Shown here one piece after another: positions 26,894-33,527 of a DNA stretch of 43,060 nt. Position numbers and translations under genes: made by a program. Source of the DNA: a virus. The DNA is taken from positions 1 to 43,060 of the IMG/VR virus record IMGVR_UViG_3300025876_000043; one strand, given 5' to 3'. The stretch's first letter is position 1; each line of letters opens with the position of its first letter. The notes under the pieces are model-generated. The model did not search any database and was not told the origin of the DNA. It worked only from the letters and a program-made list of their open reading frames with translations.

Positions 26894-27172
26894 TTAAATG
26901 TTCTGCCAATCAGTATTGATATCTTCCCAATTCGTACTTACAAGCTGCCATTCTAAATTACGATCAATATTAGGATCAGGTCTTGGATCACGAATTGTCT
27001 CATTATCTTTTAAGTTAGCAGTGAAATTCTGTGGGTGATTAACTAAATCAAATGCACCTTCAAAATCTGTTGGGCATACACGTAATTTATATGAGTTATA
27101 CTTTAACTCTCGAAGAGGATATCTCCAACCGCATATATCACATAAACCTACTGCATGTTTATCACTTGCCAT
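26894..27172 (-). CDS. Small zinc-ribbon-like virion-region protein
   Basis: A 92-residue protein with CDICG (residues 11-15) and a VCPTDFEG knuckle about 20 residues later. This is a zinc-ribbon pattern in which the fourth Cys has become Asp; D or the following His (in VNHPQN) could replace it. The rest is Asn/Asp/Trp-rich with a tail NTDWQNI. Found between a fibre and an adaptor gene, as similar proteins are in other marine phages as I recall. Role unknown, probably structural. Confidence 0.6.
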   Translation of the reverse strand: MASDKHAVGLCDICGWRYPLRELKYNSYKLRVCPTDFEGAFDLVNHPQNFTANLKDNETIRDPRPDPNIDRNLEWQLVSTNWEDINTDWQNI

Positions 27173-27181
27173 TAGACTTTA

Positions 27182-27856
27182 TTATACCCTACTTAATTTT
27201 GGTTTGAAAAATAAACTTGTACGTTCACGGTCTTCCATTTGAGCATTACTGAGTAATTCTTCATAATTCTGTTTAAGTAAACCAATACGTTCATTTGCTA
27301 CATTAGGTCGTTTCATTGCCATATAGTAAGCAAGTCCCATTGTCAGACAGGGTAAAAAACGAGTTGGAATATCTACGTTTTCAGCTATAACATTTTCAAC
27401 ATCTTGAATCTTATGAATCTGTTCTAGTTTTAACATATCAGTTGAGTTTTCAGGAATAGGATATACAAACATTTCTGGATTATCTCTTCCTCTACGAATT
27501 GCGTATTGAGAAGGTCTTCCAGTTTGAGATTTATTATTAATCTGTAAATATTCTTCCATTGAAATACGAATCATTCCAAGATCACGATCATCTCTATTAA
27601 CAACTGCTTCTAAAATATCAATTGTAGAAGATGTTAATGCATAAGATGTAACTGATGTTGTAACTGAAATAGCTGTAGTTTTCACAGTCCATAAGTTAAT
27701 GCTTCGATTCTGCCAATCTGTAAGTACAAGATTAATGGATCGTTTAGCTGACGTTACTTCATTACCGAGTACAACTTCACCACCAATAAGCTCACTAGCT
27801 TCTTGAATGATTGTATCTACATCCAGATTAAAGTTATATGTACCGCTAGTAGCCAT
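27182..27856 (-). CDS. Head-tail adaptor-type protein (P22 gp4 / tail tubular A-like)
   Basis: A 224-residue protein. VDTIIQEASELIGGEVVLG at the N-terminus, INLVLTDWQNRSINLWTV, and a C-terminal LTMGLAYYMAMKRPNV helix ending in ELLSNAQMEDRERTS fit the podoviral adaptor family that binds below the portal and connects it to the tail. A helical bundle flanking a small beta domain is expected. Located in the tail section of the late block. Confidence 0.6.
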   Translation of the reverse strand: MATSGTYNFNLDVDTIIQEASELIGGEVVLGNEVTSAKRSINLVLTDWQNRSINLWTVKTTAISVTTSVTSYALTSSTIDILEAVVNRDDRDLGMIRISMEEYLQINNKSQTGRPSQYAIRRGRDNPEMFVYPIPENSTDMLKLEQIHKIQDVENVIAENVDIPTRFLPCLTMGLAYYMAMKRPNVANERIGLLKQNYEELLSNAQMEDRERTSLFFKPKLSRV

Positions 27857-28849: not shown

Positions 28850-29599
28850 TTACTCTTCTGGATTATTTTTAATATAAAGAATTTCAAAATCAGCAGATAC
28901 TAAGTTATTAGTACCAGAACTCACTGCTCTAACTTCTAAATCTGTTTTTTCTTCAAAAGGTAAAGGATATTCTATAACAAAATCAGCAACACCACTCCTA
29001 CCTATAGTTTGTTTAAGTTGTACTCTAAAAACTTTATTAATTTCACGAGATATAAAACTTGCTGTAATATACTGATTTATATTAGCTGTACCTGATGCAA
29101 TATTAATATGATTTATATAAGCTGTATATCCAGCAGGAACTGTCCATAATGCCATTAAAGTTTGATTTACGCCTAATGTAATTCTAGCATATGTAGTTCC
29201 ACCATTAGCAATATTAATTGTTCCAGTTGGTTCTTGTGACCCACTTACAAAAGCTCTATACACTCGTAAAAATGTTTGTGTTGTAGTTGCAGTCCCTGCT
29301 CCTGCAAGTGTAACTTCTTCACTTACTTCATTGTAATCAGCATCAAGACCTTCAATTGTAACTAAAACACCATTATCATCTGCAGGTGTTCCAGCAGTTG
29401 TTGTAGCTGTCATAGCTATAGCACTAGTAGGATAAGTGTATATACCACCTACATCCCAAACAGTTTCTTCAGTTCCATTTATATCAGGATTAAAACCAAA
29501 TTTAAAAACACGTTTATGATATGGGATTTGATTACGAGAAACCTGTAATTCAAAAGGCTCGTTTCTTCCCCATCTTGTTACACTACTAGCAAGTGACAT
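28850..29599 (-). CDS. Virion structural protein (beta-rich)
   Basis: A 249-residue protein starting MSLASSVTRWGRNEPFELQV. It is beta-rich with Thr/Gly/Ala-dense strands, and has VWDVGGIYTYPTSAIAM and QTFLRVYRAFVSG segments that recur in marine phage and cyanophage virion proteins. A lectin- or jelly-roll-like decoration or tail-appendage domain is plausible. No Cys. Sits among the small basic virion-region genes. Confidence 0.55.
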   Translation of the reverse strand: MSLASSVTRWGRNEPFELQVSRNQIPYHKRVFKFGFNPDINGTEETVWDVGGIYTYPTSAIAMTATTTAGTPADDNGVLVTIEGLDADYNEVSEEVTLAGAGTATTTQTFLRVYRAFVSGSQEPTGTINIANGGTTYARITLGVNQTLMALWTVPAGYTAYINHINIASGTANINQYITASFISREINKVFRVQLKQTIGRSGVADFVIEYPLPFEEKTDLEVRAVSSGTNNLVSADFEILYIKNNPEE

Positions 29600-29606
29600 A
29601 TTTTTA

Positions 29607-29954
29607 TTACCTTATTGGTTTACGAGCTTTACCAAAGCCCTGAACTTGTGGTGATTCCTTACCAGTTACTGGACGCATATCCTCATAAATGTCTATAGGT
29701 GTTGGTGGAGTAGTATCAGCTTCCATTCCTTTATCAGGATTATTTTTTAATTTTTTCTTAATTTTTCCACCTTTTTTAAAACTTTGTTGTTTAGCTTGTT
29801 CTGTTTGACGTGTTACTTGATTAGTTTGATTTTTATTATCTTTATCTTTATTTCCAGAAGACAATAACATAGCTATAGGAGATACATATTTTAATTTATC
29901 TGGATCATCCATAAGCATTCCAATAGGTGATAATTTTGTTAATAATTTTTTCAT
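29607..29954 (-). CDS. Basic protein with GGKIKKK signature
   Basis: A 115-residue protein. Two similar N-terminal segments (LSPIGMLMDDPDKLKY and VSPIAMLLSSG) form an internal near-repeat. A Gln/Asn/Lys linker leads to FKKGGKIKKKLK at residues 59-70, one of the shared basic Gly signatures. The C-terminus is Pro-rich. Its stop overlaps the start of the 62-residue gene region by 4 bp. Likely a minor virion protein. Confidence 0.6.
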   Translation of the reverse strand: MKKLLTKLSPIGMLMDDPDKLKYVSPIAMLLSSGNKDKDNKNQTNQVTRQTEQAKQQSFKKGGKIKKKLKNNPDKGMEADTTPPTPIDIYEDMRPVTGKESPQVQGFGKARKPIR

Positions 29955-30139
29955 GATTTATATCCTCCACCAGCTTTTTTATATTTACTGGCTAATAGTT
30001 GAGCTTTACGTGCTGACCATTGACCTGCTTTACCGCCTTTAGTTCCAGCTTTAATTGATTCAAATAATCTTTTACGCATAGTAGGTTTAGTATAATTACC
30101 TGCTTTATTAACTGTTGATTTCTTTTTCTTTAAAACCAT
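29951..30139 (-). CDS. Small basic protein, GQWSARKAQLLASKYKKAGGGYK type
   Basis: A 62-residue Lys/Gly-rich protein: KPTMRKRLFESIKAG, TKGGKAGQWSARKAQLLA and a C-terminal KYKKAGGGYKS. I recall close relatives in marine phages and algal giant viruses (unverified). The C-terminal Gly/Lys/Tyr end resembles the signatures of neighbouring proteins. Its ATG shares a base with the stop of the Cys-rich microprotein (TAATG). Confidence 0.7.
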   Translation of the reverse strand: MVLKKKKSTVNKAGNYTKPTMRKRLFESIKAGTKGGKAGQWSARKAQLLASKYKKAGGGYKS

Positions 30140-30228
30140 TATTTTTTCTCTACTGGTTTATTGCAAGTACATTTACAAGTTTCTGGATTACAGTTTTTAC
30201 ATTTACAGTTACAAGTTTCACAAGCCAT
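30139..30228 (-). CDS. Cysteine-rich, metallothionein-like microprotein (29 residues)
   Basis: Read directly from the - strand: 29 residues with Cys at 3, 6, 8, 10, 13, 18, 20 and 22, that is 8 of 29. The Cys form CxxC and CxC clusters (CETCNCKCKNC, then CKCTC), and the two halves share an ETC-x-C-x-C pattern, suggesting an internal duplication. There are no aromatic residues and the rest is mostly Lys, Asn, Thr and Glu. These are metallothionein features, so metal binding (Zn, Cu or Cd) is inferred. It is joined to both neighbours by one-base TAATG overlaps (30228 and 30139), which argues strongly for translation. It lies in the late virion block; whether it enters the virion is unknown. No family assignment made. 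Confidence 0.75.
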   Translation of the reverse strand: MACETCNCKCKNCNPETCKCTCNKPVEKK

Positions 30229-30656
30229 TAGTAACCTCTCAGTGCTTTACCGTAACCTTTACTGCAACCAGCTTTACGTTTAATTCGACCACCTTTTTTA
30301 AATGTTAAATCTTTAAGAGGATTTAATTCTTTTGGTTTAACTGATTCATTATTTTTAGCTAAAGAACTAGTTTTTGTATCTTTTTTAGGAAAACCAAAGT
30401 TCCCTCCTTTTTTCTGATCAGCAATATCCTTATCCATACGTCTAGCTTGGGATAAACGATCTTGTCGTGCTACATCTTCAGGAGAACCTTTTTGAGGTTT
30501 TGGTTTAGGCTTCATAGGCTCTGCAGGAACTGCTTTTTTCCTTTGACTCATTGTAGGTTTATCAATCTTTTTAGCTCCCTGTTTTAAGTACTTAGGAAGA
30601 TGTTTAGCGGCTACCCTTAAAAGAGTGCCTCCTAATGCAATAATAATTGGAGCCAT
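30228..30656 (-). CDS. Basic virion-region protein with KAGC-GKALRGY tail
   Basis: A 142-residue protein. The N-terminus has a short hydrophobic helix (APIIIALGGTLLRVAA), then a Lys/Pro-rich linker. The C-terminus carries FKKGGRIKRKAGC and ends KGYGKALRGY (residues 122-142). The last 15 residues are nearly the same as those of the LysM protein gene just upstream, so these two share a tail by duplication or common function. Likely a minor virion or DNA-associated protein. Confidence 0.65.
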   Translation of the reverse strand: MAPIIIALGGTLLRVAAKHLPKYLKQGAKKIDKPTMSQRKKAVPAEPMKPKPKPQKGSPEDVARQDRLSQARRMDKDIADQKKGGNFGFPKKDTKTSSLAKNNESVKPKELNPLKDLTFKKGGRIKRKAGCSKGYGKALRGY

Positions 30657-30657
30657 T

Positions 30658-31443
30658 TTAATATCCTCTCAGTGCTTTACCCATACCACGTTTGCAGCCA
30701 GCTTTACGCATCCTACCACCACTTTGACGTTTAATACTTCCACCTTTTTTATTTTTAGAATAATCTTCTTCTTGTGGAAGAGTTTCATATGAACCTAAAC
30801 CAAACGGTAAGTTAACTTTATCTCCACCTTTTTTAGAATCAATTTGAGGCATAGATTTTAAACCAAATAAACGATCACGTTTTTTCTTAGCTGGTTTCTC
30901 TTCATTTGATATTTTAGTATTTTCTTTAGAGGTTGATGGCTTTTTAAAAACACTTTTAGGAGTTCCTGAATATATTCCCTCATCGTTTTTACGAGATAAA
31001 GGATTAACTTTAATTGTTTGTCCTACACGAATAGAGTTAGCATCTTTAATTGAAGGGTTTGCCTTCAGTAGTCTACCAACAGTAGTACCGTATATTTTAG
31101 CAAGCTCACTAATAGTATCTCCCTTTTTAATTGTATAAGATTTTGTTTTAGGAGAAGTAGCAGATGGTTTAGCAGAAGTAGCAGCTGGTTTAGCAGAAGT
31201 AGCAGCTGGTTTAGCAGAAGTAGCAGCTGGTTTAGCAGAAGCAGCAGGTGGTTTAGATTTAGTAGTATTTTGATCTTGCCGAGCTTTTTTGGCATCTTCA
31301 GACGAATAAGCTTTATTACCTTTACGCCGACGTTCTTTTTCTTTAGAAGGAAAACCACCTAAACCAAAAAGTCCGTTATCTAAAACATCTTCAGCCATTA
31401 CAGGTTTCTTTTTCTTGCTTCGATTTCTTGAGTTACGAGCCAT
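30658..31443 (-). CDS. LysM-domain virion-region protein
   Basis: A 261-residue basic protein. Residues 1-60 are Lys/Arg-rich; 66-98 are four tandem SAKPAAT-type units; 102-147 are a LysM domain (YTIKKGDTISELAKIYGTTV, ending IRVGQTIKVNP), which binds peptidoglycan. A Lys-rich linker leads to GGSIKRQSGGRMRKAGC and the tail RGMGKALRGY. LysM on a small virion-region protein suggests help in crossing the cell wall or a role at lysis; no hydrolase domain is attached. Shares its C-terminal tail with the next gene. Confidence 0.8.
   Translation of the reverse strand: MARNSRNRSKKKKPVMAEDVLDNGLFGLGGFPSKEKERRRKGNKAYSSEDAKKARQDQNTTKSKPPAASAKPAATSAKPAATSAKPAATSAKPSATSPKTKSYTIKKGDTISELAKIYGTTVGRLLKANPSIKDANSIRVGQTIKVNPLSRKNDEGIYSGTPKSVFKKPSTSKENTKISNEEKPAKKKRDRLFGLKSMPQIDSKKGGDKVNLPFGLGSYETLPQEEDYSKNKKGGSIKRQSGGRMRKAGCKRGMGKALRGY
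31166..31249 (-). repeat. Tandem 21-bp repeats in the LysM gene
   Basis: Four head-to-tail copies of a 21-bp unit (starts at 31166, 31187, 31208 and 31229; the last diverged) encoding SAKPAAT. The first three are identical, so copy number is likely to vary by slippage, changing the linker before the LysM domain. Confidence 0.85.
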
Positions 31444-31467: not shown

Positions 31468-32124
31468 TTAATTAGAATACGCAATTACTGTGTTGTCAGC
31501 ACCTGCTGGTGATGCAGGAGCAGCCATATCGTCTCTACGAGTACGGCGAGCTTGATTTCGTAGTGTCTCAACAGCTTGCATGTATCTTTGCTCAAATAGC
31601 TGAACTGCCGAAAAGTTTTTAGTGAACACCATAGCTTCAACCATTGAAGCATTAAATAAAGCATCATAACAAATCTCAGTAAAATAATTAGTGGGGTTTG
31701 CAGATGTTAAGGTTACAGGTCTAGCAACAGTCATTAAAATACCGTCTGATGTTGAAGCAGGTGTAGGTGCAAGACGTACACGAGTATCTGTAACTCGTGA
31801 GTAATATCTTGGTACTTCAGTTGAAGCACTTGTAGGCCATACTGCATTTAAAAACTCATCAGTCTTTAACAATAAATTAATTTTAGAACCGTTATTAATC
31901 AGATTAAAATTCTTTACGATGCGTGTACCAGTAGGAAGAGTAATTTCTGCATTACTAGCAGAAACTGCAATTGATGTTTGAACAACTAAACCATAATCAT
32001 CTAAATCTCGCGTTAGTCTTTCTTCAGAACGATTGACCATGTTAGGAACATAAGCTAAAAACTCAGTTCCATCATTTTCACACGCACTGATAATATCATT
32101 TACAAGATAAGTATAATCGGTCAT
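31468..32124 (-). CDS. Head-tail adaptor-type protein (SU10-adaptor-like)
   Basis: A 218-residue protein starting MTDYTYLVNDIISACEN. VPNMVNRSEERLTRDLDDYG is a strong family-like block, followed by a beta domain (EITLPTGTRIVKNFNL; TRVRLAPTPAS) and a C-terminal helix (CYDALFNASMVEAMVFTKNF; QRYMQAVETL). This layout is that of adaptors that dock beneath the portal. With the 27182-27856 protein it gives two adaptor-type proteins. Confidence 0.6.
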   Translation of the reverse strand: MTDYTYLVNDIISACENDGTEFLAYVPNMVNRSEERLTRDLDDYGLVVQTSIAVSASNAEITLPTGTRIVKNFNLINNGSKINLLLKTDEFLNAVWPTSASTEVPRYYSRVTDTRVRLAPTPASTSDGILMTVARPVTLTSANPTNYFTEICYDALFNASMVEAMVFTKNFSAVQLFEQRYMQAVETLRNQARRTRRDDMAAPASPAGADNTVIAYSN

Positions 32125-32600: not shown

Positions 32601-33527
32601 TCAGCTTGAACCAGAAGCACCGCGCCACTGACGCCAGTCACTCCAACCGAAAGCATAACGCTCACGAGACTTGAAGCGCATGTTACCCGTATCGAAATCA
32701 GGCTCCATTTTGGTTTGGAGAGGAACGCGAACGAACATCTTCGTACCATTAGGAACGTCAGTCTTTAGGAACCATGCGTTGGTATCCGTAAAGCGACGGT
32801 TAACATAGAACCCATCAGAAACAACAGACTGATTGCGAATTGCATTGATGTTGTTCTGTGCGTATGCAGATGAACCACCTGCAACCGTTGTACCCGGCGA
32901 GTTAAGTACTTGATCTGCAGTATAGATAAGATCAGATGGAATGTGAAGTGATTCAGTTGAAGCACCGATCAAAATACCACGATCATCCTTAATTTTAGTT
33001 ACTGCAATCGTTGCGGTTTCAAGAGCAGCTTCTGAGAAATCAGTTGCTCCTACAGTGTTAGATTGATTTCCATCACCAATAGTTGGGTGAGTAGCTGAAA
33101 TCAAAGGTTGACCGTCACCACCGTTATAGCTTGTAGAAAACGCATTGTTAAATACGTCTGCAGCTTTAACCTGTTTGGTGTTAGCCATAGCACGAGCTAG
33201 ACCTTTAGCACGAACCTTCGAGAAGGTGTCATATAGGTTGTCTTCCATAGCTTCTTCAGTGATAGCAAACGCAAGAGCTACAGTTTCCATTGTGTAACGG
33301 GCTGTGTAACCTTCTTGTGCGTTGTCATACTGGACTGCTGAACCTTCTGATTTAGTAGGGGCAGAGCCGAAGCCGGTGAATAGAACTTCTTCCTCAAATG
33401 CACGATCTGAGTTTTCGATTTCATAGAGTGGAGCATGTTCGTCGTTTACTTCACCATAAGAAATACCGAAAATCTCATTAAGTCCGGGAAGGAGTTGTTT
33501 TGCAATACTACTGCGATTAATAGCCAT
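32601..33527 (-). CDS. Major capsid protein
   Basis: A 308-residue protein with features of a podoviral HK97-fold capsid protein: an N-terminal arm (QLLPGLNEIFGISYG), E-loop-type region around TGFGSAPTKSEGSAVQYD, a spine-helix region (AFAITEEAMEDNLYDTFSKV), the conserved-type HPTIGDGNQSN, PSDLIYTADQVLNS, and the C-terminal DFDTGNMRFKSRERYAFGW. It follows scaffold and two head genes and is followed by a strong terminator, consistent with a gene needing very high expression. No protease gene is visible next to it. Confidence 0.88.
   Translation of the reverse strand: MAINRSSIAKQLLPGLNEIFGISYGEVNDEHAPLYEIENSDRAFEEEVLFTGFGSAPTKSEGSAVQYDNAQEGYTARYTMETVALAFAITEEAMEDNLYDTFSKVRAKGLARAMANTKQVKAADVFNNAFSTSYNGGDGQPLISATHPTIGDGNQSNTVGATDFSEAALETATIAVTKIKDDRGILIGASTESLHIPSDLIYTADQVLNSPGTTVAGGSSAYAQNNINAIRNQSVVSDGFYVNRRFTDTNAWFLKTDVPNGTKMFVRVPLQTKMEPDFDTGNMRFKSRERYAFGWSDWRQWRGASGSS

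Follow-up and report, generated by a model that had tools for sequence, protein, structure and literature searches.

A 29-residue peptide with eight cysteines, encoded in the virion operon of a marine podovirus, is almost certainly the product of a real gene, and the best explanation for it is that of a late-made metal-thiolate (Zn/Cu) buffer, a reading to which we assign a probability of about 0.58. The window, i.e. the whole stretch of DNA analysed, is the 43,060-base IMG/VR virus record IMGVR_UViG_3300025876_000043; it is AT-rich and encodes a GroES-like protein, terminase, a Phage_capsid_4 major capsid protein, two SU10-adaptor-like proteins, ThyX and ribonucleotide reductase (Table 1). 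A family of microproteins encoded directly after the adaptor gene in a related clade, here called the adaptor-slot family, is a stronger and more surprising result than the window peptide itself.

Table 1. Features of the window referred to in the text
Feature	Position	Strand	Remarks
Metallothionein-like microprotein ORF (window peptide)	30228..30139	-	MACETCNCKCKNCNPETCKCTCNKPVEKK*, 29 aa, 8 Cys; ATG at 30228, stop codon ends at 30139; same strand as the whole virion operon
Shine-Dalgarno-like GAGAGG	30235..30240	-	6 nt before the ATG of the window peptide; inside the LRG codons of the C-terminal KALRGY of the upstream gene
Upstream gene, 142 aa	30228..30656	-	C-terminal tail KAGCSKGYGKALRGY; TAA at 30230-30228 overlaps the ATG of the window peptide
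Downstream gene, 62-aa basic protein	29951..30139	-	phrog_17747, function unknown; starts within the stop codon of the window peptide
LysM-domain gene	30658..31443	-	upstream in the operon; C-terminal tail KAGCKRGMGKALRGY, same as that of the 142-aa gene
249-aa gene	28850..29599	-	phrog_8198; cyanomyovirus homologues annotated as virion or tail-fibre protein; used as anchor for relatives
SU10-type adaptor gene	27182..27856	-	homologue in the related clade directly precedes that clade's metallothionein-like microprotein
92-aa protein with CxxC...C motif	26894..27172	-	occupies the post-adaptor slot in the window
Major capsid protein (Phage_capsid_4)	32601..33527	-	~50% identical to the capsid protein of the microprotein-bearing clade

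Translation of the minus strand confirmed the ORF described in an earlier note on this DNA, including its duplicated ETCxCxC half, while the plus strand of 30139-30228 yielded nothing of note. The cysteines lie at residues 3, 6, 8, 10, 13, 18, 20 and 22 (spacing CxxCxCxCxxCx4CxCxC), ETCNCKC (residues 4-10) is echoed by ETCKCTC (residues 16-22), and the 29 residues include no F, W, Y or H. The one-base TAATG overlaps of the ORF with both neighbouring genes, also described earlier, are real in the window sequence. Two further features of this block are of note. The adjacent genes 30658-31443 and 30228-30656 share the C-terminal tail KAGCxxGxGKALRGY, the codons of which provide the Shine-Dalgarno sequence of the next gene in the window, and in relatives RGCGKAMRGYG tails recur at the ends of several genes. 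In addition, 27182-27856 and 31468-32124 both match Pfam SU10_adaptor (43.9 and 65.1 bits, respectively), as if the adaptor had been duplicated; homologues of both are present in the clade bearing the adaptor-slot family.

The cysteine count alone is weak evidence for a gene, because short cysteine-rich ORFs also turn up by chance on the antisense strand or in another frame of Ala/Thr-rich genes. The window contains other cysteine-rich ORFs; one such decoy with 7 Cys in 29 aa (29276-29365, plus strand) lies antisense to the conserved gene 28850-29599. Scanning all viral contigs with the pattern CNCKCxxCN recovered the window's own group and otherwise little more than out-of-frame noise. A first-order Markov null nevertheless predicts ~0.01 chance ORFs of the kind of the window peptide per window. 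Because composition alone can mislead, we used conservation in place as the criterion. The ORF is kept in eight other IMG/VR contigs (L002, L003, L005-L009, L164) with 97-100% nucleotide identity. In the comparison with L007, all 90 of its 90 nt are identical, against nucleotide identities of 43% for the gene at 29607-29954 and 90% for the upstream gene; in spite of replacement of the upstream gene in L005 and L009, the ORF there still matches at 87 of 90 nt. In L005, L009 and L164 the stop codon comes one codon earlier, and the TAATG overlaps are lost with the ORF retained. Because the overlaps vanish in these three contigs while the ORF stays, the peptide rather than the overlap is what is kept, and the earlier proposal that the overlaps fix the ORF in the operon did not survive. 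We conclude that conservation in place lifts the window peptide above chance, and from this conservation we infer that the peptide is translated and under purifying selection. Within the window clade, there are too few changes for a usable dN/dS value. Cysteine positions are conserved amid free variation in the adaptor-slot family; for the window peptide, the relatives are either near-identical or strongly diverged positional ones.

The strongly diverged relatives come from five more distant contigs (L163, L171, L176, L191, L212), in which the 62-aa gene is immediately preceded by a 9-Cys peptide (M[AS]CKNCNC[EK]ECGPDCNCVNCGDSCDCKK..., with MACKNCNCEECGPDCNCVNCGDSCDC ahead of the 62-aa gene). 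The 62-aa gene of these contigs is 84-89% identical to that of the window, and in most of the five the gene before the peptide carries a tail of the same type (RGCGKAMRGYG compared to AGCSKGYGKALRGY). When peptides of the window clade were compared pairwise with those of L212 and L073, only 13-43 of 2000 composition-preserving shuffles scored as well. The window-type microprotein keeps the 62-aa gene as its partner, although the 62-aa gene alone usually lacks a microprotein: it is widespread, and 106 of 124 loci have no cysteine-rich ORF in the gap. Relatives with the same flanking genes but no ORF, which the earlier note had named as evidence against the gene, were not seen; every locus in which a gene with a GCxxGxGKALRGY tail adjoins the 62-aa gene carries the microprotein, and at the sole tailed locus without it (L161) the tailed gene is 319 nt away. 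We also observed a second kind of microprotein, 31-32 aa in length (MKIVKWLWRYLKRIGCAILNKNCGPDCNCKVG; L141:1122-1217, L186, L197, L207 and ~35 other loci), which has a basic amphipathic N-terminus and a 4-Cys CGPDCNC end and in several contigs directly follows the 62-aa gene.

The adaptor-slot family was reached by a scan with the pattern CGPDCNC, which led to ORFs of 27-30 aa with 8-9 Cys directly after homologues of the window's adaptor gene in uncultivated marine podoviruses, the major capsid protein of which is ~50% identical to that of the window. The adaptor-anchored set comprised 80 of 591 adaptor relatives, six of which end within 60 bases downstream; the microprotein was present in all 74 of the 74 contigs with enough downstream sequence, and it begins 12 nt after the adaptor gene. 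In a second, profile-based scan, 61 of 64 loci passed the same test for post-adaptor position; of the other three, one lies on a truncated contig, one depends on the choice of start codon and one has a gap of 151 nt. Exactly one copy per genome was found in seven of seven longer records. The family as a whole numbers 146 loci, with some contigs counted twice; these fall into 88 distinct contexts and 74 distinct DNAs and encode 59 different peptides, which are 25-36 aa long and contain 7-11 Cys. At eight core columns, none of the 74 distinct DNAs has another residue in place of cysteine, although two sequences have a gap at one column, and the codons TGT and TGC alternate at each of the eight. 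Sequence drift is seen at positions other than Cys, K and E. The pN/pS ratio was 0.58, 0.42 and 0.39 in three divergence bins, and the median dN/dS in the first set was 0.26. The genes have strong TAGGAGG-type Shine-Dalgarno sequences, and throughout the clade the ORF overlaps the next gene by ATGA or TAATG. The adaptor-slot family thus represents a real, selected gene, and the pN/pS values, the invariant cysteines and the strong Shine-Dalgarno sequences strongly support that it is translated and under purifying selection. Conserved cysteines and a low dN/dS in related phages, which had been suggested earlier as a check, were thus found in this family as eight invariant columns and a pN/pS of ~0.4.

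The codon evidence nearly excludes two alternatives. If the ORF were a translational coupler, its translation would matter and the peptide itself would not, which would account for the TAATG overlaps at either end of the window ORF and for the ATGA or TAATG overlap that joins the microprotein ORF to the following gene across the related clade; however, the cysteine columns do not vary although synonymous TGT/TGC exchange is free, and L005, L009 and L164 have retained the ORF with the overlaps gone, making this explanation highly improbable. Even less probable is a chance cysteine-rich ORF in a spacer: such ORFs do arise antisense or out of frame, but this one is on the sense strand, has a Shine-Dalgarno sequence, is conserved in place across replaced neighbours and has diverged positional counterparts, and the related family is under strong selection.

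Is the window peptide a member of the adaptor-slot family? In the window, the slot after the SU10-type adaptor holds the 92-aa CxxC...C protein instead of an adaptor-slot microprotein. Against the adaptor-slot profile, 152 of 2000 shuffles scored as well as the window peptide (p ~0.08), while the L212 peptide scored above 1999 of 2000 composition shuffles of itself. A search of the window's own genome with this profile did not find the window peptide, and the cysteine spacing of the window peptide differs from the adaptor-slot core CxCx3CxCx2CxC. A chain from the window peptide via L212 to the adaptor-slot family, linked only through intermediates, is therefore a plausible but indirect connection; convergence on one design and relocation with drift are both possible origins of the two lineages.

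In both the window peptide and the adaptor-slot family, the composition is that of metallothioneins (~20-35% Cys in CxC/CxxC arrangement, few or no aromatic residues). The core spacing of the adaptor-slot family, CxCx3CxCx2CxC, is that of the beta domain of vertebrate metallothionein, and 41 of 42 first-set sequences fit this core if an insert is allowed. The comparison sequences of SmtA, Neurospora metallothionein and the human MT2 beta domain serve as rough yardsticks only. Like the vertebrate beta domain of PF00131 and the short fungal Cu-metallothioneins, the phage peptides are short (25-36 aa) and rich in cysteines in CxC/CxxC arrangement, and the window peptide lacks aromatic residues; unlike them, they are phage-borne, lie in a virion operon and score below the curated cut-off, and the window peptide has its own spacing. 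Matches of relatives to Pfam PF00131 had E values of 0.003-0.006, which is below the cut-off, and the window peptide itself had no match above the cut-off among curated metallothionein models. The family profile and one relative had only weak PDB matches, all of them to metallothioneins. NCBIfam and PHROGs contain no family model for these phage microproteins. The metallothionein-like reading of the earlier note is supported as to kind, i.e. a conserved Cys-dense microprotein in the virion block with invariant cysteines in a related family, while no curated model was passed.

Prokaryotic metallothioneins (SmtA/BmtA, PmtA; MymT) are bacterial, cysteine-rich proteins with a role in metal buffering; they are ~50-80 aa in length, and those of the SmtA type contain His and a small folded part. 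The phage peptides share the richness in cysteine with them, whereas the bacterial proteins are longer and the SmtA type has His. Prokaryotic metallothionein models (Pfam, NCBIfam) gave no match at E values up to 10, and the window peptide is also devoid of His. A scan of bacterial genomes for CGPDCNC detected scattered cellular cysteine-rich ORFs with no link to a phage host; such bacterial and archaeal ORFs use the same CGPDCNC words as the phage peptides, but they are cellular, have another genomic context and are uncharacterised. In a bacterial MAG contig (region L429:4281-4301), a 30-aa, 11-Cys metallothionein-like ORF lies directly upstream of an apparent cysS (cysteinyl-tRNA synthetase). 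Other short ORFs with 7-9 Cys occur at unrelated positions (L056:226-351; L054:4058-4195; L210, L250, L254; e.g. MDMTEEKKKCATCECYECDCEECNCECHKEDNDEEVQGVPV) and are possibly independent metallothionein-like genes. Zinc-ribbon and zinc-finger phage microproteins have CxxC knuckles and small size in common with the phage peptides, but the latter are CxC-dense and have no spacer domain between two knuckles. AlphaFold gave no confident fold for the adaptor-slot family (mean pLDDT 63, pTM 0.30); this is expected for a metal-free metallothionein but lends no support.

The examined cultured relatives of either anchor gene (HMO-2011, HTVC, CRP, MEP, DSL-LC04, 023Pt_psg01) lack the peptide, so that it is dispensable for many phages. 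In cultured phage records, tblastn with the peptides gave no match, although the low-complexity filter may hide such peptides, and a search with a longer cysteine-rich relative gave chance-level matches only. A search of bacterial genomes with the adaptor, aimed at a host or prophage, identified no relative. Metallothioneins are known from cells. We found no report of a phage-encoded metallothionein in the open-licence literature; the metallothionein in a paper on phage Ab31 was considered as a phage precedent and rejected, as it is listed under the analysis of a bacterial genome sequence and is not a phage gene.

In our working model, the window ORF, which is present and conserved at its locus, is a true gene of a marine podovirus that encodes GroES. 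The peptide would be translated late, together with the virion proteins. Because of the CxC/CxxC density and the lack of aromatic residues, we infer metal-thiolate binding, in which a few soft metal ions, either Zn(II) or Cu(I), would be enclosed as a small cluster by the eight thiolates. The peptide would then serve as a metal and thiol buffer in the infected cell during particle assembly, as host metal homeostasis fails. It is likely that the window peptide binds metal, and buffering is somewhat favoured over a structural or other role. Redox protection and the supply of metal to a neighbouring protein, as proposed in the earlier note, would likewise be putative roles.

Two other functions were weighed against buffering. 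An unlikely one is that of a structural or assembly microprotein, i.e. a Zn-thiolate staple that is made beside its partner gene and aids assembly or maturation of the joint between portal, adaptor and tail. The fixed post-adaptor position in the related clade, the conserved gene for a small basic protein next to it in the window clade and co-translation via the stop-start overlaps speak for such a staple; however, one lineage has the microprotein after the adaptor and the other has it before the 62-aa gene, and the drift outside Cys/K/E together with a number of cysteines varying from 7 to 11 is unusual for a docking surface. Less likely still is a host-directed thiol- or metal-chelating effector that, for example, removes Zn from a protein involved in defence or transcription, or scavenges oxidants at lysis. 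Small, fast-evolving phage peptides are often effectors, and the acidic/lysine tail KKEE and the location in a late operon would suit this function, but the gene is in the late virion block and not in an early region, and one clade, although widely diverged, has kept it in 100% of testable contigs, which suggests a core rather than a host-specific role.

Returning to the metal-buffer reading, the 29-residue peptide and its kin probably represent a real, previously unannotated type of phage gene. More tentatively, marine podoviruses may encode their own metallothionein as a core late gene that is expressed with the virion, that arose or moved on at least two occasions (slot after the adaptor; slot next to the 62-aa gene) and that ties the phage burst to the availability of Zn and Cu in the ocean. 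If true, this would be a viral metal-homeostasis module that was never annotated because its products have <40 residues; libraries of phage families miss strongly selected genes of <40 codons. The finding raises the question of whether phages carry their own metal buffer, and whether the supply or toxicity of metals may be limiting during assembly in a metal-poor ocean.
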